The notes beneath the pieces are model-generated. The model did not search any database, was not told where the DNA came from, and was given only the letters and a program-made list of their open reading frames with translations. A stretch of 46,487 nucleotides of DNA, from positions 1 through 46,487 of the IMG/VR virus record IMGVR_UViG_3300037993_000311; one strand, given 5' to 3'. Each line of letters opens with the position of its first letter. The stretch's first letter is position 1. This DNA comes from a virus. The translations under genes and the position numbers were made by a program. Positions 2,227 through 45,231 of this stretch are shown here, one piece after another.

Positions 2227-3096
2227 ATGGCTCCGCCTACCACACGCCCGGTACTGACCTCGCCGCCGACGCGCATGGCGCTGGGCAACGATCAGTGGTT
2301 CATGCGGGAGAAGTTCTGCGACGCCATTGGAGCGTTGAATCTCGCGGTGCAGAACCTTGAGGGAATTGTCGGCCCAGAGAGCTTTCCCGCCGTTATGCAC
2401 GAGTTCATCAATTCCTACGACGCCACGACTGGCATATTCACAGCGCTGCAGCCGCATTTCGACGACATTTTGGGCGTAGCGGCAACCGATCAGATCGGCA
2501 CGGGCACGCCTCTGGCGGGTACGTACGTCGATGGCGGCAGCGGAGCATGGACGCCGCTTTCTTCCGGGCCTGCAGGATCGACGGGAGCCACCGGCGCGAC
2601 GGGCGCAACAGGTGCGACCGGAGCTACCGGCCACGTCGGTCCAACAGGCGCAGTCGGTCCTACGGGCGACACGGGAGCGACGGGTACGATAGGTCCGAAT
2701 GGTGCTACAGGTAGTACGGGTGCAACGGGTGCCACAGGTTTTGGCGCGACAGGTTCGACTGGAGCAACTGGAGCGGTAGGTGCAACCGGATCGACGGGTA
2801 GCACAGGAGCAGCCTCAACCATTCCCGGCCCAACCGGCGCTACCGGTGCGACCGGCTCAACTGGAGCGCAAGGACCAAATTGGACTCCGGTTCGCAACGA
2901 AGGGGTTACTGGAAGCGGGACATCATGGACGTTGGGCGCGACGGCACTTTACGGAGTAAGCCTCTACGCAGAGAGTGCGCGGCTTTATCCTGGCGCAACG
3001 GCGGGCGCTGCCGACTATGTCATCTCTGGGCTCTCGATCACTACGACAAATTCCTATGCAGCGGGGCAAATCAATGCGGACTATGAAAAAGCTTAA
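2227..3096 (+). CDS. Collagen-like tail fibre protein, 289 aa
   Basis: The start codon lies one base after the preceding stop. Residues about 1-110 form a globular N-terminus. Residues about 115-217 are almost uninterrupted Gly-X-Y triplets, mainly GAT, GST and GPT, interrupted once near GFGATG and once at ASTIPGP. The final 70 residues form a mixed beta head. Phage collagen-like proteins make trimeric fibres, so this is probably a virion appendage attached near the nozzle. The C-terminal head could contact the receptor or act as a trimerisation foldon. The last 23 bases overlap the next gene. Confidence 0.75.
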
Positions 3097-9669: not shown

Positions 9670-10953
9670 TTGCGTGTGCGGATTGCACTCGTTTCCGCCG
9701 ATGGCTCCGGTGCCTGGTTCCTCTTGCGCTTGATGCGCGAAGGAAACTCGTGCGACTACTATCTCACCACAGAGGACAAGACGGCGCGGGGCATGGCGGG
9801 GTTGGTTCCCGAACCCATCCATAATGCGCCGAAAAGCTGGAAACAGTACGATCTGGTCGTCTTCGACGGCAATTCCGACGGCGAACTGGCCGACAAGATT
9901 CGCAAGCAGACCAATGTTCTCGGCTGCTCGGAACTGAGTTGCCGCCTCGAAGATGACCGCCTGTTCGGCCTCGAAGCCATGCAACAAATGGGCATCGAGG
10001 TTCCCACCTACGAACCCTTCGACAATCCTAAAGACGCGCGCAAGTACATCTCCGAGAACCCGGATCGCTACGTTTACAAGCCCTTCCAAGACCCCGGCGA
10101 GCTTGAAATCGACTCGTCAGTAACATATGTCGCCCATTCTCCTTCTGACATGGAGCGTTCGTTAGATCGGCTATTCCGCGAGTCGAAGGGCGCTCCATTC
10201 CTTTTGCAGAAGTTTGTCGAGGGCACGGAGATCAGCGTCGAGGGTTGGTTTGACGGGTCGAATTTCCACTTCGTTAACGCCACGCTAGAGGAAAAGAAGT
10301 TTCTGGCAGGCGGCTTGGGACCGAATACCGGTTGTGCGGGCAATATCGTTTGGCCGTTTCGGGGAGTGCCTCTGGTATTCGGGCGCGGTTTGATGAAGGG
10401 AACCGAATGGTTGCGCGAACACAATTACCGGGGCATGATCGACCTCAATACCATCGTTACCCGCAATCAGGTATATGGCTTGGAGTGGACGCCGCGCCTG
10501 GGCTTTCATGCCAGCGCCACACTGCTCAATATGCTCACGACACCCTGGGGCGAGTTTCTGGCGCAGTTTGCTGAGGCGCCGGAGGGTGGAATCGACTCAA
10601 TAGGCGAGGTAGATGCCGATTTTGGGGCAGGAATCGATGTGAGCGTGCCGCCGTTCCCCGAAATCAAGGCAAAAGCGGATGCCGGCTTGCCGGTTGAGGG
10701 CATCGACCCAGAGGAGGCATGGCGCGACTGCTACCTCTACGACGCCATGATGCCGGATGGCGATTTAGTGACGGCGGGCATCAACGGCGATATTGGCTGC
10801 GTGCTTGCTAAGGGTTACACTTTCCGAGGCGCATGGGCAAACGCGCTGGAGCAGGTGAAAAAGATAAAAGCACCTGATTTACAATGGCGGATAGACCTCG
10901 AAACCAGCACAGGCCAGCGTTACCGGAAGTTGCAGGAGCAAGGGTGGATTTGA
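9670..10953 (+). CDS. ATP-grasp ligase, PurD-like, 427 aa
   Basis: The only sensible start is TTG 9670, directly after the previous stop, with AAAGG five bases upstream. The protein has an ATP-grasp layout: a Rossmann-like preATP-grasp part (1-95); an ATP-lid region with YVYKPF at 134-139; QKFVEGTEISVEG at 180-192; GPNTG at 217-221, as in glycinamide ribonucleotide synthetase (PurD); and an EWTPR metal-site segment at 272-276 in place of the usual E-x-N. The family ligates a carboxylate to an amine through an acyl-phosphate. The substrate is unknown. No other purine gene is present, so classical purine synthesis is unlikely. It overlaps the next gene by one base. Confidence 0.75.
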   Translation: MRVRIALVSADGSGAWFLLRLMREGNSCDYYLTTEDKTARGMAGLVPEPIHNAPKSWKQYDLVVFDGNSDGELADKIRKQTNVLGCSELSCRLEDDRLFGLEAMQQMGIEVPTYEPFDNPKDARKYISENPDRYVYKPFQDPGELEIDSSVTYVAHSPSDMERSLDRLFRESKGAPFLLQKFVEGTEISVEGWFDGSNFHFVNATLEEKKFLAGGLGPNTGCAGNIVWPFRGVPLVFGRGLMKGTEWLREHNYRGMIDLNTIVTRNQVYGLEWTPRLGFHASATLLNMLTTPWGEFLAQFAEAPEGGIDSIGEVDADFGAGIDVSVPPFPEIKAKADAGLPVEGIDPEEAWRDCYLYDAMMPDGDLVTAGINGDIGCVLAKGYTFRGAWANALEQVKKIKAPDLQWRIDLETSTGQRYRKLQEQGWI

Positions 10954-22361: not shown

Positions 22362-22541
22362 CCTACGTGCCAGCCGCTCAACAGGATCGACAGCACCCAA
22401 CATGCCAGTCAGATTCAGAAATCCATAGGAATTTCCGCAGGCGCACCTGTCAGGATTGTTCCCAATCAGGCCACACGGACACAAGACAGCTCCCGCCAGC
22501 GGCAGGTAGGTCCATTTCCAGTCTTTGATCCAGGTGTTCAT
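22296..22541 (-). CDS. Small hypothetical protein ending the early operon, 81 aa
   Basis: Its ATG overlaps the stop of the upstream nuclease gene (ATGA). Residues 9-25 are hydrophobic, followed by Cys motifs (CPCG and CACGNSYG). The 3' third runs antisense to the end of the endolysin gene. Coupling argues it is translated; the odd overlap and lack of any family argue for caution. It fills the 22362-22540 gap. Confidence 0.4.
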   Translation of the reverse strand: MNTWIKDWKWTYLPLAGAVLCPCGLIGNNPDRCACGNSYGFLNLTGMLGAVDPVERLARRLAEEFRCQHIRWLAADPCAYI

Positions 22542-22864
22542 CTCAACATCTCCAGTACATCGTTGATCGCCTGGCCGGCCAGCACCATGTCCGTCGAGTA
22601 CCGCAGCACAAGGAATCCGAGTTTTGCCGCGGCGTTATACTTTTCCGCGTCTTCTTCAAATCCTTTGCCCCGCGTGTGTGCACCGCGCTTCCAGATCCCG
22701 CCCTCTATCTCTATAGCAATCCTAGACTTAGGCAAAACAAAGTCAAAGCGCCATTTGCGTTCCTTATGAAAGCGGTACTCACGGATGAACAGGATCTTCT
22801 CGGCGCGCAGATGAAGTGCCATGGCCTCTTCGCCGGGGCTTAACGCTCGTGGAATCTTGCTCAT
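22538..22864 (-). CDS. DUF559/VSR-like restriction-fold nuclease, 108 aa
   Basis: The protein has the compact PD-(D/E)XK layout of DUF559 and very-short-patch-repair-like nucleases: WRFDFVLPKSRIAIEIEGG supplies the D-x(n)-E-x-E core, then HTRGKGFEEDAEKYNAAA and LGFLVLRYSTDMV complete the fold. It may nick or cut DNA during phage replication, recombination or host DNA breakdown. A gene downstream is coupled by ATGA. The start Met follows a weak site near the end of the upstream gene. Confidence 0.7.
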   Translation of the reverse strand: MSKIPRALSPGEEAMALHLRAEKILFIREYRFHKERKWRFDFVLPKSRIAIEIEGGIWKRGAHTRGKGFEEDAEKYNAAAKLGFLVLRYSTDMVLAGQAINDVLEMLR

Positions 22865-34674: not shown

Positions 34675-34702
34675 TTGACAGATCGCATGGTTGTGATACT
34701 GT
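34675..34702 (+). promoter_or_regulatory. Sigma-70-like promoter
   Basis: Consensus TTGACA (34675-34680), 16 bases of spacer and TACTGT (34697-34702). The predicted start near 34709 coincides with GTG 34710 of the RHH gene, pointing to leaderless translation. This is the clearest promoter in the window. Confidence 0.6.
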
Positions 34703-34709
34703 GTATTAC

Positions 34710-35249
34710 GTGAGTCGAGCGCAGATCATTTCGGTACGGATGCCAGTTAAGTTGTTGGAATGGTTGGATGAGCGGGCTCGGAGGCAAGAAATGAGCCGTT
34801 CACAGGTGTTAGTGCGCACACTGCGATACGCTTCACGGAAAGAGTCTAATGAAGACGATTTGCGGCCGTTGCAACGTGAATCCGAATCGGATTGGCCAGC
34901 GTCGGTGCCTAGTTTGTCATCGGGAAGTGATGCGAGAGTTTCGCAAGACGCATTCTCTAAAGCCGGATCAGCGTTGGGAGATGAACAGCCGGTCCTACGC
35001 AAACACTTACCAGAAGCGGGGCAAATTGATTCCACAATCATGCTGGAGATGCGGCGATCCGAAAGCGCAGAAGCATCACCCGGATTATTCGAAACCGCTC
35101 GAAGTGGAGTGGCTGTGCCGGACCTGCCATCTTCTGCACCATCAGAATGTCCGGTCCATGGCTTAACCTGCGGGGCCGCAAAGGACGGCGAAGGAATTCG
35201 CTGCGGATTAACAAAAACTGTCTACCATGTACTTGAGGCTGATTTATGA
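34710..35249 (+). CDS. Ribbon-helix-helix regulator with long overprinted tail, 179 aa
   Basis: I choose GTG 34710; ATG 34740 would remove the first strand. AQIISVRMPVKLLEWLDERA followed by EMSRSQVLVRTLRYASR is a classical RHH DNA-binding domain (residues about 4-45). From 34849 the frame continues for about 130 Ser/Glu/Pro-rich residues while another gene, in the +1 frame, lies entirely inside it. The stop at 35247-35249 overlaps the next start (ATGA), which argues that the long reading is used. It may repress the region, including its own promoter. Confidence 0.6.
   Translation: MSRAQIISVRMPVKLLEWLDERARRQEMSRSQVLVRTLRYASRKESNEDDLRPLQRESESDWPASVPSLSSGSDARVSQDAFSKAGSALGDEQPVLRKHLPEAGQIDSTIMLEMRRSESAEASPGLFETARSGVAVPDLPSSAPSECPVHGLTCGAAKDGEGIRCGLTKTVYHVLEADL
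34849..35166 (+). CDS. HNH-like zinc-binding protein nested in the regulator gene, 105 aa
   Basis: Read in the +1 frame within 34710-35249. Cysteine pairs in ICGRCNVNPNRIGQRRCLVC form a first zinc site. SCWRCGDPKAQKHHPDYSKP followed by VEWLCRTCHLLHHQ is the zinc and His-His core of a widespread HNH-like phage protein family. The family match makes this the ancestral-looking reading. ATG 34849 has only a weak AAAGAG site, so it may depend on translation of the RHH gene. A nuclease or DNA-processing role is inferred. Confidence 0.7.
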   Translation: MKTICGRCNVNPNRIGQRRCLVCHREVMREFRKTHSLKPDQRWEMNSRSYANTYQKRGKLIPQSCWRCGDPKAQKHHPDYSKPLEVEWLCRTCHLLHHQNVRSMA

Positions 35250-35761: not shown

Positions 35762-35772
35762 GAAAGGAACCC

Positions 35773-36456
35773 ATGATTCACGAAGTTGATTTGGCGGGCG
35801 AGACGGCGGAGACCCGCGCCTTAGAGGGTATTGACCGCTCCTCGGACGGCACGCTGGGATTTAGCCGGGCGCACTCGGCGGAGCAGGAGTTGGTGCGGGA
35901 TGGGTTGGAAATCAGAGAGTATGCCTACGATGGGCCAAGTGGGCGTGCCTCTCTGCTTATCAACGCCTCGGCCGCTCCGCCCCTGCTGCGCGGCTGGTCG
36001 ATCACGCCGCTCGATGACCGCCTGCTGGTCGAGTACGCCAGTTTCAAAGAGGGCTATGTGTGCGAAGCGTGCCAGGGATCGGGCATGTCCAAAATACCCT
36101 GTGCAACTTGCCAAGGAACGAAAAAGCAGGAGATTAAGCCGGGACGATTTGAGGCATGCGATAGGTGCAGAATCGTCGGCGCCGATGCACACGAGCCGTC
36201 TTCTTGCGGGTTTTATCCCTGCGTGGGTTGTAACGGTTCCGGTCTCGCCCCTGGGATCCTCGCCATGCCTGACTCCTCGAAGCAGGATCACAGCTACGGC
36301 GATATTCTGGCGGTGGGGCAATCGGTGATGGATTTGCGCCCCGGCGACAGAGTAGTATTCTCGAAGATGGCGGGAATTTATCTGAAGGGCGATACCCGTA
36401 ACTGCTGTCTGCTAAGGCGCGGCGAAATCATGGGGTTGATGGTGAAGAAGGGCTAG
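35773..36456 (+). CDS. GroES-like co-chaperonin with inserted DnaJ-type zinc module, 227 aa
   Basis: GAAAGGAA precedes ATG 35773. Residues 1-72 are a unique extension. Residues 76-90 (SITPLDDRLLVEYAS) match the first GroES strands. Where GroES has its mobile loop, residues 97-157 carry four CxxC elements, CEACQGSG, CATCQGTK, CDRC and CVGCNGSG, like the DnaJ Cys-rich domain. The GroES fold then resumes: GILAMPDSSK (161-170), GDILAVG (176-182), LRPGDRVVFSKMAG (188-201) and RRGEIMGLMV (215-224). Viral GroES homologues such as T4 gp31 help fold capsid proteins. Here the loop that docks on GroEL appears replaced by a zinc-binding client or partner module. Confidence 0.8.
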   Translation: MIHEVDLAGETAETRALEGIDRSSDGTLGFSRAHSAEQELVRDGLEIREYAYDGPSGRASLLINASAAPPLLRGWSITPLDDRLLVEYASFKEGYVCEACQGSGMSKIPCATCQGTKKQEIKPGRFEACDRCRIVGADAHEPSSCGFYPCVGCNGSGLAPGILAMPDSSKQDHSYGDILAVGQSVMDLRPGDRVVFSKMAGIYLKGDTRNCCLLRRGEIMGLMVKKG

Positions 36457-36458
36457 CG

Positions 36459-36620
36459 ATGACCAGCGAAGAGCTTGCTAGTTTGCGTAGACTCACAGAA
36501 CGAGCAGTTTATAAACTGGAACTCGAACAAGAGAGAGATTGCAACTGCGTATGGCACGAATTTGAGACATTGATTTTATGGCTTGAGGATTATTTTAAGG
36601 AGCAGAACACAAAGAAATGA
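36459..36620 (+). CDS. Small helical protein, 53 aa
   Basis: ATG 36459 lies two bases after the co-chaperonin stop. The peptide is one charged amphipathic helix (LRRLTERAVYKLELEQERD, then VWHEFETLILWLEDYF). Its stop overlaps the small-terminase start (ATGA). Tight linkage on both sides supports it. Function unknown. Confidence 0.6.
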   Translation: MTSEELASLRRLTERAVYKLELEQERDCNCVWHEFETLILWLEDYFKEQNTKK

Positions 36621-37123
36621 GCTTTAAAGGCTTTCCCATGGATCAGAAGAAGAAGGCGCCGAAGACGACCTGGAAACAGCGCCGGCGCATTCAGCGGATT
36701 CACGCTATCCGGCTGGCTAACGCGGATTTCTTCTATGCTCTCGATCCCGACCTGAGCGCCCACATGCTCAATATCTCTCCCGAGGAAGCCTTTCGCGCCC
36801 GCAAGAACCCGGTCTACGACGAGCGCCTAAATCAACTGGAAAACGAAGAGATGGGCCAGTTGCGGCGCACCATGAAAGAGGATACCGACAAGCTGCGGCT
36901 GGCGTTGCAGGCTAAGGTTCCCCGCGCCATGGAAGTTCTCGACGAAGCTCTTTGGAGTGGCGATATGAACGTGGCCGTGCGCGCTGCCCAGGAAGTGCTG
37001 GACCGCGATGGGCGGATGCCCAAGGTATCGCGCTTGCAGACCGCGCCGGCGGACGAAAACACGATGCCCGATGTCGAGCCCAAGCTGCTGGCTGAGTTCC
37101 TACCCACATCAAAGCCGAATTGA
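36617..37123 (+). CDS. Small terminase subunit candidate, 168 aa
   Basis: ATG 36617 is coupled to the previous gene; ATG 36638 with AAAGG is an alternative start. A basic N-terminus (KTTWKQRRRIQRIHAIRLAN) suited to DNA binding precedes a long helical centre (LNQLENEEMGQLRRTMKED) and VPRAMEVLDEALWSGDMNVA near the C-terminus. The size, the helical build and the position just upstream of TerL fit a TerS that recognises pac/cos DNA. No signature motif. Confidence 0.6.
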   Translation: MSFKGFPMDQKKKAPKTTWKQRRRIQRIHAIRLANADFFYALDPDLSAHMLNISPEEAFRARKNPVYDERLNQLENEEMGQLRRTMKEDTDKLRLALQAKVPRAMEVLDEALWSGDMNVAVRAAQEVLDRDGRMPKVSRLQTAPADENTMPDVEPKLLAEFLPTSKPN

Positions 37124-37133
37124 GGGTAAGGTA

Positions 37134-37196
37134 ATGAAACAAACTCAAAGGAAAAAAGAAAAGGCTGTTCTTAAGCACCGGAAAGGTCGTAAGTGA
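37134..37196 (+). CDS. Possible 20-residue Lys/Arg-rich peptide
   Basis: Reads MKQTQRKKEKAVLKHRKGRK between TerS and the next small gene; its stop overlaps the following start (TGATG). It is highly basic, so DNA binding is possible. A short chance ORF is equally possible. Confidence 0.35.
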   Translation: MKQTQRKKEKAVLKHRKGRK

Positions 37197-37426
37197 TGGG
37201 AGTCCTGTTGGTATCTACCACACTTCTAACTTGCGATTCTTGCGGCAAGCGCGAGGTTGATCCACAGTTTCCAGCACGGATGAACAACTGGTTTACCGTG
37301 TTTCGCGGCGGATACACTATGTTCCCCGGACACGATCCAGACGCGATCTTCTGCCTTGAGTGTATGCATAAGATCAAGAATCTATACGACATGAAATATA
37401 GTCCGGCTGCTACGAAAAAAGATTGA
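37196..37426 (+). CDS. Small zinc-binding protein, 76 aa
   Basis: ATG 37196 follows GGAAAGG. CDSCGKREVDPQFP and FCLECMHKIKN give two CxxC pairs, likely one zinc site around a Phe/Gly-rich centre. It ends three bases before TerL. It may assist packaging, but no family is recognised. Confidence 0.6.
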   Translation: MGVLLVSTTLLTCDSCGKREVDPQFPARMNNWFTVFRGGYTMFPGHDPDAIFCLECMHKIKNLYDMKYSPAATKKD

Positions 37427-37429
37427 GCC

Positions 37430-39154
37430 ATGGCGACCGACGTAATCGCCGCGTTCCCCGAAATACTTCCCCCCACACCCCTGAAATGGCAGTTCCTGCC
37501 TTGGGATAAGAGTGTCAGCGAGCGCGCCCGCAAAGTGGCCATGCGGCTCAATGCGCTGGCTGACCCCTATTTCTTCGGCAAGGTGGTGCTGCAGCGTGAT
37601 CGTCTTGTGCAGCACCTTCATGGCGCATGGCTTCAGACATTATCCAACCCGCAACTGCACATGCTTTTCGAGGCTCCGCGCGACCATTTCAAGACCACAT
37701 GCGGGACGGAGATTTTGTCAATCTGGTGGGCATTGCCTTTTGAAGCCCGCGAAGAGGACTGGATGCGAGCCAGAGGAGCGGGCGATGAGTGGATCAGGTA
37801 CATGAAACGCATCCACTCGCGCAACCTGCGCATTCTGATTGCTTCAGAGACTGAGCCGAACGCGGTTGAGATGGGATTCTGTTTCGATCATCAATACGAG
37901 AAAAACGAACGCTTCCGCAGCGTGTTTTTCGATCTGATACCGCCGACCGGGGCAACCTGGAACCAGCTTTCCAAGAGCCACAACCGTACTTCTTTCACCG
38001 GACAGGGAACATATAGCTTTGTGGGCGTGGGCACGGTGCTGCAATCGCGGCATTTCGACCGCGCGGTAGAGGACGATCTTTTTGGAGAAGAGGCGCTGTA
38101 CTCGGAGTCAAGCCGCAAGACGACAATCGAATGGCACCAGCGGCTGCCCGGCGCCTTCGACAGCGATTCCGATTCGGAAACGAAATTGAATCTCGAGCTG
38201 GTGACGGGCAACAGATGGAGCCTGAACGATCTCAATGCCCACATCAGGGAGAACAATCCCAGTTTTCATGTGGAGAGCCATTCGGCTGAAGGCGGCTGCT
38301 GCACCAGACACCCTGCCGGCCAGCCCATTTTCCCTGAAGAATTCTCGATGGAAAAGTTGCACGAATTGCGGGTGCGCTTCGGGATTCGCAACTATTCGGC
38401 CCACTATCTCAACCAGCCCGTCACGGAAGAGGAGTGCAGTTTCAGGAAGGCGTGGCTCCGCAAATACCGGCTATTCAGGAAGCAGATGGGTTTCAAGGTG
38501 GACGGCACGCCCATCGAGCGCACCATGCTGGAGCGCATCCCATCTGATTCCAACTCCATGCTGGAGGACGTTCCGCTCTCGGAACTAACCCGCGTGTTGA
38601 TCCTCGACCCTAACCATGGCGGCGAGAAAGGTCGAGCGCGTCATGCCGCAGTTGTCGTGGGATATAGGAGATTTCAGGGCAAGAAGGAGATTTATCTTCT
38701 CCAGGCCTGGGCCAAGGCGGTCTCGCACGATCAGATGGCGGGTAATGTGAAGAAGATTGCCGAACGCTGGCATGTGGAGCGCGTGTTTGTCGAGACCATC
38801 GCCGGCCAGGACGGTTGGCTGCTTTATTTCGAGCGCGAACTGCGCGCCAGTTTGCCGCAAACATTTGTTGAAGCCTGCCCCAAGGAGCGCGGCGCCGGTG
38901 CGAAAGAGCGGCGGATTCTCTCGATGTCTCCCCTCTATGAGCGCGGCCAGGTTTGGGTTCCGGTCACAGGCGCGGAGGATTTTCTGCACGAGTACGAGTA
39001 CCACCCCAACGGCACTACGGTAGACTTGATCGACGCAATGGGGTATCTTTTCAACATCGTGGAGACTCAGGAAGTGGACGGCGCTCTCTGGAAACGACAG
39101 TTTGGCATGGACATGGAGCGCAGGCGGCGTAGCATAGGAAGCGCAGGTTACTGA
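37430..39154 (+). CDS. terL: Large terminase subunit (packaging ATPase-nuclease), 574 aa
   Basis: The ATPase half has a non-canonical Walker A (EAPRDHFKTT, residues 81-90) and a Walker B-like VEDD (213-216), followed by the LNLELVTGNRW coupling region. The nuclease half has the RNase H-like acidic residues: Asp393 in LILDPNHGG, Glu455 in VFVETIAGQ and Asp532/Asp535 in VDLIDAMGY. It pumps DNA into proheads through the portal and cuts concatemers. The arrangement places it with podovirus-like or headful terminases; the exact packaging type cannot be told from this. Confidence 0.9.
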   Translation: MATDVIAAFPEILPPTPLKWQFLPWDKSVSERARKVAMRLNALADPYFFGKVVLQRDRLVQHLHGAWLQTLSNPQLHMLFEAPRDHFKTTCGTEILSIWWALPFEAREEDWMRARGAGDEWIRYMKRIHSRNLRILIASETEPNAVEMGFCFDHQYEKNERFRSVFFDLIPPTGATWNQLSKSHNRTSFTGQGTYSFVGVGTVLQSRHFDRAVEDDLFGEEALYSESSRKTTIEWHQRLPGAFDSDSDSETKLNLELVTGNRWSLNDLNAHIRENNPSFHVESHSAEGGCCTRHPAGQPIFPEEFSMEKLHELRVRFGIRNYSAHYLNQPVTEEECSFRKAWLRKYRLFRKQMGFKVDGTPIERTMLERIPSDSNSMLEDVPLSELTRVLILDPNHGGEKGRARHAAVVVGYRRFQGKKEIYLLQAWAKAVSHDQMAGNVKKIAERWHVERVFVETIAGQDGWLLYFERELRASLPQTFVEACPKERGAGAKERRILSMSPLYERGQVWVPVTGAEDFLHEYEYHPNGTTVDLIDAMGYLFNIVETQEVDGALWKRQFGMDMERRRRSIGSAGY

Positions 39155-39255
39155 TGGAAGCGAAGTCTGAGAATGTTTTTATGACTATCGCCGTGCTGGC
39201 ATTCGGTGTTTGGTTATTCAGTGTGTTAATGCGCGTGTTTCTCGGAGTACGCTGA
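39154..39255 (+). CDS. Single-TM microprotein between terminase and portal, 33 aa
   Basis: ATG 39154 overlaps the TerL stop (TGATG), and its own stop overlaps the portal start in the same way. The peptide is one TM helix (MTIAVLAFGVWLFSVLMRVF) with a charged N-terminus. Double coupling makes translation likely. Role unknown. Confidence 0.55.
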   Translation: MEAKSENVFMTIAVLAFGVWLFSVLMRVFLGVR

Positions 39256-41177
39256 TGGCGCTACCCAGGATCATTCGCTGCGATGAGTATTTCGGCCCCG
39301 ACACCATGGCCGAATTGCGCGGCTACGCTTTTCAGTATCTCGAATCCCTGCGCACCCAACTCCGCGAAATCCGCACCGACCGCGTGACCGACATGCGGCG
39401 TATTCTCGAAGGCAAGCCCAAAGAGCCCATCAAGAGTTTTCCTTGGCAGTACGCCGCGAATACCATTGTGCAACTGGTGGCGAGCTTTACCGATCAGTTT
39501 GCCGCCCGCATGGTGATGGGCGTGCACAACACTGTGCCGGTATTTCCGGTAAAGATCCTGGGCGGCATGGACGTAAAACTCCAGCCCGAGAAGCGCCGCG
39601 AACTGCTGGAAGACTTTCTCCAGACTTCGGCCATCGACCCGGCGACCGTGAACCTGATCGAAACCGAGTACACATGGTTCCGCAACGCCATCGCTTACGG
39701 TTGCCGTGCCCTCAAAGTCAATCTGGTATCCGACACCAGCTACGTGATGCGTGGCAAGGAACCGCAACTGGTGCGCGGCTACCAGGGGCCGGAACTGGTC
39801 TCGCTCGAATACGAAGATTTTCTCATGCCTCCCGAGGCCATGCCGGTCTCGCGGATGCCGTTCAAGGCTCAGGCGATTCACCTTTCCCGCTGGGACATCG
39901 AGCAGCGCGTAGCATCCGGTGTCTGGGACAAGGACGAAGCGCAGGCGGTATTGACGGCGTCGACCACCACCGCCGACGACCAGCCGCGCAAGGAACTTCA
40001 ATCCGATCAGAAGATCGCGCCATCGGCTACCAAGGAAGCGCAGATATTCACTCTCTACGAGTGCCACGTAAAGTTCCTGCATTCAAAGACTTTCGACTGT
40101 ATCCTGACTTTACACCCCGAAACTAAAGCCTGTCCCAAAGCGATATTCCGTTTCTACCCGCCGGATATTCAGGAATTCATCCTGCTGCGCGTGGGCGGAG
40201 GCAATCGGGCTTACGGGCTGGGCTTGATTGAAGCTCTGCAGGATTATCAGGAGGAAGTTTCCCAGATTCACAACCAGCGCCGCGATGCCGCGACGGCCGC
40301 CAACACCAACGTGCTGCGCGTTACCCCCGGTTCGCAACTCGATACCATGACTACGCTTTACCCCATGGGCATTATTCCCGCGCCGCCGGGAAGTATCGAA
40401 TGGCTGCAACTGGGGCGTAACCCGGTCGAGACTATTCAGGACGAGAATCTGGTGCGCATGGAAGCCAGCGAGCGCGCGGGCGTCCATCCGTCGTTCTCCG
40501 GCTCCGGCTCCGGCGGCCCCAACAAGCGCGGCGTCTACTCCGCGATGGGCACGATGTCGGTGATGCAGGAGGGCAACTCCCGCACCGACATGAATCTGGC
40601 GCTATTTCGCAATGCTCATGTGCTCTTGGGGCAGACACTTCTAGGTCTCTACTCCCACTTCGGCGTGGATAAAAAGGTGCTGGCGCGCTACGGGACAGAC
40701 GAAAAACTGCTCTCCTCGGCGCTTGAGGACTATGCGGCAGGCAATATGCAGGCCGTGGTTCATGCGGGAACGGCGAGCGTCAACCGCGAAGTCGAAAAGC
40801 AGAACCTGATGTTGATGATGCAGAACCTGCGCCAGCACTATCAGCAGGCAGTGGGGATGCTGCAGATGATCGAGAACCCCATGACGCCGCCCGACACGAA
40901 GAAATATCTCGCGGAGGCGCTGGCGGGACTCAATACCCTGATGAAGTGGGCCATCCGCAACTTCGGCATCGGTGCCGGCGGCCAGGATTTCGTGCCCCAG
41001 ACCGAGAATCTGGTCGTTAAACAACAGCAGCAACCGCAGCCGCCGCAACTCGGTCAAGGGCAAAATCCAGGGGGGAATCAAGATAGTCAACAGGGAGGCG
41101 GTATGCCGGTGCCGAACGGCGCCGCTGCGCCTCCGCAACCGCCCACTCAACCCCCCATCACAGGGAGACCGCAATGA
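39255..41177 (+). CDS. Portal protein, 640 aa
   Basis: I start at ATG 39255, coupled to the microprotein stop. Length, position directly after TerL and the helix/strand pattern match podovirus-type portals: an N-terminal helical wing (ELRGYAFQYLESLRTQLREI), the central beta region, and a long C-terminal helix (EVEKQNLMLMMQNLRQHYQQ). The last 50 residues are Gln/Pro/Gly-rich and disordered. It forms the dodecameric DNA channel at the capsid vertex. Confidence 0.8.
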   Translation: MALPRIIRCDEYFGPDTMAELRGYAFQYLESLRTQLREIRTDRVTDMRRILEGKPKEPIKSFPWQYAANTIVQLVASFTDQFAARMVMGVHNTVPVFPVKILGGMDVKLQPEKRRELLEDFLQTSAIDPATVNLIETEYTWFRNAIAYGCRALKVNLVSDTSYVMRGKEPQLVRGYQGPELVSLEYEDFLMPPEAMPVSRMPFKAQAIHLSRWDIEQRVASGVWDKDEAQAVLTASTTTADDQPRKELQSDQKIAPSATKEAQIFTLYECHVKFLHSKTFDCILTLHPETKACPKAIFRFYPPDIQEFILLRVGGGNRAYGLGLIEALQDYQEEVSQIHNQRRDAATAANTNVLRVTPGSQLDTMTTLYPMGIIPAPPGSIEWLQLGRNPVETIQDENLVRMEASERAGVHPSFSGSGSGGPNKRGVYSAMGTMSVMQEGNSRTDMNLALFRNAHVLLGQTLLGLYSHFGVDKKVLARYGTDEKLLSSALEDYAAGNMQAVVHAGTASVNREVEKQNLMLMMQNLRQHYQQAVGMLQMIENPMTPPDTKKYLAEALAGLNTLMKWAIRNFGIGAGGQDFVPQTENLVVKQQQQPQPPQLGQGQNPGGNQDSQQGGGMPVPNGAAAPPQPPTQPPITGRPQ

Positions 41178-44274: not shown

Positions 44275-45231
44275 ATGTCCATGGTTCGCGCGAATTTCCC
44301 GCAGCTTCTGGCTCCCGGTGCGAGTGAAATCTTTACCGATTTTCTCGACCTCAAGGACCGTAAAGACTTTCTCGAAGACATCTTCCACGAGCTGCCTTCG
44401 ACGCGCGCCTACGAGGATGACGCCTTCATCTCGGGCTTCTCCGCTGCGCAGATCACCCCCGAGAACGCGCCGGTTCCGTTCGTCAACTTGATCGAGGGCG
44501 GTAGCGTGCGCTACATCATGCTGAAAAGCACGCTGGCGGCGCGCGTTTCCTGGGAACTGGTCGAGGACGATCAGTACGACAAGATTTCCAAGTTGCTCGA
44601 AGGCTTGGCCAACTCCGCGAACTTTACCATCTCACAGACCGGCGCCAACATCTTCAACAACGGTTTCTCGATCATCAACACCGTGGATGGCGTGAGCTTG
44701 TTCAACTCGCAGCACCCGCTGCTGCGCGGCTCCGAGGCTACCAACATCGGCCCCGGCGCAAACTTTACCAGCTACGCTCCCGGCACCTTCCCCAACCGGC
44801 CGTCGGTCGACGTGCAGTTGTCGGTTGCGGGCGTGCAACTGGGCACAACCCAGATGGAGCGCATGATCGACCAGAGTGGCCTGAGCATTTCGATCAAGCC
44901 CAAGAAGGTTATCATCCCACCCGAACTTCGTTTTACGGCGCGTGAAATCTTCGGCTCTGCCGGAAAACCGGATACGAGCGACAACAATCTCAACTCGATT
45001 CTGGGCGAGAACCTGACGTATCGGGTCTGCGACTACCTGACCGGTCCGACCAACTGGTTCATGGTGGCCGAAAAGGGGCAGCACCGGCTAAAGCACTTCA
45101 CCCGCACGCCGATCACGTTCGACTTAGACGACGATTTCAATACCCTTGCCTTCAAGTTCCTCATGTTCTACCGCGAGGCGTGGGGTGTCACGGTATTTTA
45201 TGGAACCTGGGGATCAAGCCCCACGGTTTAG
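44275..45231 (+). CDS. Major capsid protein, HK97-fold type, 318 aa
   Basis: TAGGAGAG precedes ATG 44275. The size and the sequence progression fit the Mu gpT-like group of HK97-fold capsid proteins: an N-terminal helix (DLKDRKDFLEDIFHELPSTR), a spine-helix region (YDKISKLLEGLANSANFTIS), LFNSQHPLLRG, KPKKVIIPPELRFTAREIFG, and DYLTGPTNWFMVAEKGQHRL. It should form the icosahedral shell and is a likely client of the co-chaperonin encoded about 9 kb upstream. No protease gene is recognised nearby. Confidence 0.8.
   Translation: MSMVRANFPQLLAPGASEIFTDFLDLKDRKDFLEDIFHELPSTRAYEDDAFISGFSAAQITPENAPVPFVNLIEGGSVRYIMLKSTLAARVSWELVEDDQYDKISKLLEGLANSANFTISQTGANIFNNGFSIINTVDGVSLFNSQHPLLRGSEATNIGPGANFTSYAPGTFPNRPSVDVQLSVAGVQLGTTQMERMIDQSGLSISIKPKKVIIPPELRFTAREIFGSAGKPDTSDNNLNSILGENLTYRVCDYLTGPTNWFMVAEKGQHRLKHFTRTPITFDLDDDFNTLAFKFLMFYREAWGVTVFYGTWGSSPTV

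Follow-up and report, generated by a model that had tools for sequence, protein, structure and literature searches.

We asked what is encoded by a phage gene that resembles a GroES co-chaperonin and in which the GroES-like strands are interrupted by cysteine motifs like those of DnaJ, where in the fold the interruption falls, and which role the additional domain could play. The gene lies in the window, that is, the whole stretch of 46,487 nucleotides analysed (IMG/VR virus record IMGVR_UViG_3300037993_000311, positions 1 to 46,487), and its product is called Zn-GroES here. Few chaperone components are as conserved and as simple as GroES, and a Cpn10 that carries an inserted folded domain next to its mobile loop has, to our knowledge, not been described. 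An earlier note on this DNA had described the protein as a co-chaperonin in which a DnaJ-type zinc domain takes the place of that loop; the open reading frame, the CxxC elements, the GroES strands and the N-terminal extension of about 72 residues that it recorded were all recovered in our analysis, but the replacement of the loop was not.

Identity and predicted fold of the encoded protein

Between the window and the nearest distinct homologue (L002, 72%), the nucleotide differences at the first, second and third codon positions amount to 45, 41 and 115, respectively, a spread that indicates a coding-type gene, and the open reading frame is a genuine conserved gene (Table 1). Pfam Cpn10 (PF00166) matched residues 162 to 222 of the product with 34.6 bits against a cut-off of 21.1 (E 2e-8), the relatives scanned also scored above the Pfam gathering cut-off, and a profile built from the Zn-GroES family retrieved solved Cpn10s at 1e-16. 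As far as sequence comparison goes, the 227-aa protein is a divergent Cpn10/GroES with a four-CxxC DnaJ-type zinc hairpin inserted. No model covering the whole fusion is present in Pfam, PHROGs or NCBIfam, and no paper on a zinc insertion in a co-chaperonin was found in the open-access literature; the arrangement, a phage GroES barrel broken by a DnaJ-type zinc domain, matches in its order no described family, as the earlier note had supposed.

The full-length AF2 model (pLDDT 52) gave fold-search matches only at E>0.08 and was discarded as too poor for this purpose, whereas the model of the core (residues 73 to 227, pLDDT 78) was usable. In the zinc hairpin, the pLDDT blocks over residues 103 to 132 and 143 to 152 are mostly at 91 to 94, with one block at 69, and the barrel 3' of the mobile loop reaches 81 to 85. 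The only run of the core model with a pLDDT below 50, residues 164 to 170, falls in the mobile loop, and such low predicted confidence is typical of a flexible loop. When Foldseek was run with the core model, the top matches were nearly all Cpn10 proteins (4pj1, 4.5e-5; 1p3h, 2e-4; gp31, 1g31, 0.05), and the structure prediction of the monomer, proposed earlier as a check, thus came out in favor of a GroES-like barrel. That barrel model was built on 15 sequences, a shallow alignment, with a pTM of 0.51, and a Cpn10 beta-barrel fold is predicted for the core with moderate confidence.

Table 1. Features of the Zn-GroES locus in the window
Feature	Position	Strand	Evidence or remark
Zn-GroES, putative phage Cpn10 co-chaperonin with DnaJ-type zinc insert, 227 aa	35773..36456	+	Cpn10 match, alignment, AF2, Foldseek
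Shine-Dalgarno-like AAAGGA upstream of the Zn-GroES ATG	35763..35768	+	sequence
N-terminal extension, residues 1-72 (about 72 aa)	35773..35988	+	differs between groups; AF2 confidence low
First Cpn10 strand region, residues 73-96, WSITPLDDRLLVEY..., aligned to GroES residues 1-18	35989..36060	+	hhalign; AF2 strand at 83-89
DnaJ-type zinc hairpin insert, residues 97-157, four CxxC motifs	36061..36243	+	conservation, hhalign, AF2
Zinc motif I, CEACQGSG	36061..36084	+	sequence
Zinc motif II, CATCQG	36100..36117	+	sequence
Zinc motif III, CDRCRIVG	36157..36180	+	sequence
Zinc motif IV, CVGCNGSG	36220..36243	+	sequence
Retained mobile loop GILAMPDSSK, residues 161-170	36253..36282	+	Pfam, hhalign, conservation; low pLDDT at 164-170
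Rest of the Cpn10 barrel, residues 171-224	36283..36444	+	Pfam, hhalign, AF2, Foldseek
GroES roof hairpin site, shortened to 8 residues (QSVMDLRP)	36319..36342	+	hhalign, alignment
168-aa gene between Zn-GroES and TerL	36617..37123	+	similar ORFs in L002 and L003; without family match
Terminase large subunit (TerL)	37430..39154	+	
Portal protein, SU10 type	39210..41177	+	
Major capsid protein, proposed client	44275..45231	+	relatives annotated Mu gpT-like

The zinc hairpin and its point of insertion

The four CxxC pairs of the insert (C97/C100, C110/C113, C129/C132 and C150/C153) comprise eight cysteines, all of which are invariant in the 15 distinct homologues. Furthermore, alignment of the insert by hhalign with 11 bacterial DnaJ zinc domains gave a probability of 95.5 and a score of 43.3, with the four motifs in order, against a maximum of 25.3 in 100 control shuffles in which the Cys columns were held fixed. 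The 15 homologues and the shuffles rule out chance runs of CxxC, and the likeness to the DnaJ Cys-rich domain reported previously is thus borne out. The profile comparison that had been proposed along with it gave a divided result: PF00166 scored above its cut-off, but PF00684, the DnaJ zinc domain, did not match the window protein. In the members scanned PF00684 stayed below cut-off (best relative, 22.7 against 32.7), and for this reason the insert is named DnaJ-type and not a DnaJ domain proper. Motifs II (CATCQGTK) and III (CDRCRIVG) deviate from CxxCxGxG, and PF25436 (BSD2) matched residues 96 to 166 of the window protein weakly (E 0.014). The likeness to the DnaJ zinc domain may reflect kinship or convergence. 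In the DnaJ structure, motifs I and IV hold one zinc and motifs II and III the other; with this pairing the ends of the domain meet, so that it could easily be inserted into a loop.

As for the place of the insertion, the strand upstream of it (residues 73 to 96) aligned with GroES residues 1 to 18 with an hhalign score of 20.6, whereas none of 200 column shuffles scored above 14.2, and GroES-like strands therefore flank the insert on both sides, as had been noted before. Downstream, the Cpn10 match starts at Pfam profile position 23 and the hhalign match at GroES residue 21, which identifies GILAMPDSSK as the mobile loop; in the comparison with 13 bacterial GroES sequences, LAPGILAMPDSSKQDHSYGDILAVG was aligned to the GroES segment (99.5%). 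Since strand 1 corresponds to GroES 1 to 18 and the loop is aligned after the insert, the zinc domain is inserted at GroES residues 18 to 21, at the N-terminal root of the mobile loop, which follows directly 3' of the last CxxC. None of the 15 distinct relatives has lost the loop or its hydrophobic GroEL-binding tripeptide, and the loop residues G161 and P166 are invariant. Some homologues came from patterns demanding a P-[DE] loop, so the search itself accounts for part of this conservation; the P-[DE] loop is also kept in the members found by tblastn (L002, L003, L020, L022, L024 and L069 to L071).

The retained loop bears directly on the earlier proposal that the zinc domain stands in for it and docks on GroEL or on the capsid protein. 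The insert does sit at the root of the loop, as that proposal would have it, but the loop itself, whose persistence the note had named as evidence against its own reading, is present, aligned and conserved, and we reject the replacement on the alignment, leaving it next to no probability. With the mobile loop still present, no new surface needs to be invoked in its place for the recruitment of GroEL.

The roof segment of the barrel has 8 residues in 15/15 Zn-GroES members versus 12 to 17 in bacterial GroES and mostly 15 to 21, with two short cases, in the plain Cpn10s of sister phages (the automatic value for L094 is a parsing error). The roof hairpin of GroES is thus missing from Zn-GroES, which recalls the roofless gp31 of phage T4. 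Among the plain proteins, the annotated GroES of Alcaligenes phage QDWS535 (L112, 3531-3872, P0004) has the loop segment KSAKALGIDLSASQDLQ, without the usual GIxLP.

Relatives, gene neighborhood and capsid protein

Searches of IMG/VR proteins and DNA patterns, in line with the viral-metagenome search suggested by the earlier note, returned the same architecture in 15 distinct Zn-GroES members, which fall into four divergent sequence groups: A (the window, L002 and L003), B (L019, L020, L022 and L024), C (L051) and D (L059, L061, L062, L063 and L069 to L071). Apart from the eight Cys and the two loop residues, R83, G115, G146, G155 and G157 are invariant in all members, as are, beyond the loop, G176, G182, G191, R193, V194 and G201. 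The fusion was absent from the 50,697 annotated phages searched, where partial matches concerned only the Cpn10 part, and when 84,980 cellular genomes were scanned with a pattern of one loop spacing, the 13 matches were all by chance and none encoded a Cpn10. Plasmid matches were weak and mostly annotated as plain co-chaperone GroES, and they were not accepted as homologues.

In the window, the Zn-GroES gene lies upstream of the terminase, SU10-type portal and capsid genes. Among the loci examined, this head-module neighborhood is shared by L007, L019, L020 and L022, and also by L051, where terminase and portal are inverted. All 9 Zn-phage records searched, the window included, have a capsid protein homologous to that of the window. 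The closest annotated relatives of this protein, some of them labeled Mu gpT-like, occur in phages of Roseobacter, Pelagibacter, Alcaligenes, Caulobacter and cyanobacteria and to phages from spring metagenomes. All 12 annotated phages sampled that carry a homologous capsid protein also carry a plain Cpn10, usually no more than a few kb away from the capsid gene, versus none of six phages related by TerL without a capsid match; the association gives a Fisher value of 5e-5, to be read with the fact that the phages are related and the rows are not independent. In the capsid-protein tree, ten Zn-phages, a set selected by presence of the insert, all lie on one side of a branch (96/94), which fits a single gain of the insert. 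A script scan counted no CxxC in any of the 11 plain Cpn10s from the capsid-homologue sister phages. No GroEL was found in the seven Zn-phages searched, so that host GroEL is the expected partner.

Several observations concern other genes of these phages. Between Zn-GroES and TerL, the window (37193-37426) also encodes a 77-aa protein with two CxxC pairs and no family match. At 34701-35249 and 34849-35166 it has two overlapping plus-strand ORFs in different frames, both family-matched, one to ribbon-helix-helix over its first 40 residues and the other to the endonuclease family phrog_2340. Elsewhere in the window we noticed a collagen-like repeat protein (2227-3096; PF01391), an ATP-grasp protein like phosphoribosylglycinamide synthetase (9670-10953; PF01071) and, on the minus strand, a DUF559-type endonuclease-like protein (22538-22864; PF04480, 5e-6) with a similar ORF in L007 (2581-2913). 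The capsid region of Pelagibacter phage HTVC023P has a purM-like gene. In L022 (2659-5400), TerL has 913 aa and an insertion right after EVPMSHFK that contains a LAGLIDADG-like match (PF14528, 1.4e-6) and looks like an intein.

Possible role of the zinc hairpin and comparison with known systems

Our main reading, to which we assign a probability of about 0.72, is that Zn-GroES is a phage co-chaperonin, a lid of host GroEL dedicated to the major capsid protein of the phage itself, with the hairpin most likely touching that client. Synteny and co-occurrence with the capsid protein make the capsid-client role well supported, so that Zn-GroES probably helps to fold the capsid protein, as the earlier suggestion of a GroES substitute for capsid folding had anticipated. 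In the proposed mechanism, seven copies would cap one ring of host GroEL through their mobile loops and form a roofless dome like that of T4 gp31, its rim bearing seven hairpins of two zincs each at the junction of lid and GroEL. The client would be the major capsid protein, whose gene lies in the same head module; most likely the hairpin would touch it, either to help load it or, as BSD2 does with Rubisco, to keep hold of the folded subunit when it is released. Instead, or also, the hairpin could provide an extra contact with GroEL and a tether at one end of the mobile loop. We infer by analogy which job the zinc domain has, be it client capture as in BSD2 or an additional GroEL contact. It is possible to hypothesize, rather tentatively, a lid with built-in client capture, in which the hairpins would keep hold of the capsid protein on its way into or out of the GroEL cage and would join capsid folding and assembly in one ring; we know of no co-chaperonin that binds its client through a dedicated extra domain.

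A serious rival, to be regarded as somewhat doubtful, has the hairpin acting on GroEL, where it would tether the N-terminal end of the mobile loop, add an apical-domain contact and outcompete host GroES. With only three residues between G157 of the last motif and G161 of the loop, the hairpin necessarily lies close to the interface of lid and GroEL, and the AF2 prediction is confident over the insert and low over loop residues 164 to 170, as such a contact would have it. However, GroEL is highly conserved, and a surface fitted to it should be conserved too, whereas the insert surface besides Cys and Gly is poorly conserved between the sequence groups, which a co-evolving client fits better than a near-invariant GroEL.

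It is improbable that the insert is a passive spacer that raises the lid and enlarges the cage for the capsid protein, like the longer mobile loop of gp31, given that this capsid protein, at 318 aa, is small enough for an ordinary GroES cage. Sister phages with similar capsid proteins have no insert, although the roof of Zn-GroES is short as well and gp31 does gain chamber volume by a longer loop and no roof (PMC6318259). We attach little credence to a virion or scaffold component built on the Cpn10 fold that has lost its co-chaperonin role: the gene does lie in the head module and its GroEL partner is only predicted, but the protein still has the GroEL-binding loop, and plain Cpn10s persist in annotated sister phages, several of them between the portal and capsid genes. 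Just as unlikely is an Hsp70-Hsp60 bridge, in which the zinc domain would recruit DnaK-bound clients, even though the DnaJ zinc domain of E. coli has an established part in DnaK-dependent cycles. The kindred Hsp40-Hsp60 link suggested in the earlier note found no direct support, since a J-domain (PF00226) was found in none of the seven Zn-phages searched, the window included, and the free-standing DnaJ-type protein ZnJ2 works without DnaK (PMC5818400).

The insertion and the roof loss in one capsid-protein lineage, across four divergent sequence groups and next to sister phages with a plain Cpn10, amount to a natural experiment that could show which properties of the GroEL lid a phage requires to fold its capsid protein, and Zn-GroES offers a case in which client recognition by a co-chaperonin can be tested.

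Among known systems, the plain phage Cpn10s of Roseobacter phage CRP-902, Pelagibacter phage HTVC023P and Alcaligenes phage QDWS535 have the same barrel and mobile-loop position and are likewise head-module genes near a Mu gpT-like capsid gene; such plain proteins differ from Zn-GroES in having no CxxC and, for the most part, a long roof segment. T4 gp31 and RB49 CocO are phage co-chaperonins, as we propose for Zn-GroES, and gp31 folds the capsid protein gp23 and has no roof loops, a lack considered to help it in that task (PMC6318259, PMC3012670); unlike in Zn-GroES, the mobile loop of gp31 is longer and free, and no zinc domain is described for it. PHROG 931 (head morphogenesis), taken as the gp31-like group, did not match the window protein at E<=0.1 and matched one group B member at 3e-5. 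The DnaJ cysteine-rich domain (PF00684) shares with the insert four CxxC motifs in the same order, but Zn-GroES has neither the J-domain nor the C-terminal client domains of DnaJ, and its zinc domain lies inside another fold. Finally, BSD2 and ZnJ2 are DnaJ-type zinc hairpins without a J-domain that bind Rubisco, a chaperonin client, BSD2 acting after the client leaves the chaperonin and ZnJ2 as a DnaK-independent holding chaperone (PMC5859369, PMC5818400); BSD2 (PF25436) and ZnJ2 are free-standing plant or algal proteins, whereas the putative zinc hairpin of Zn-GroES is fused to the lid itself.
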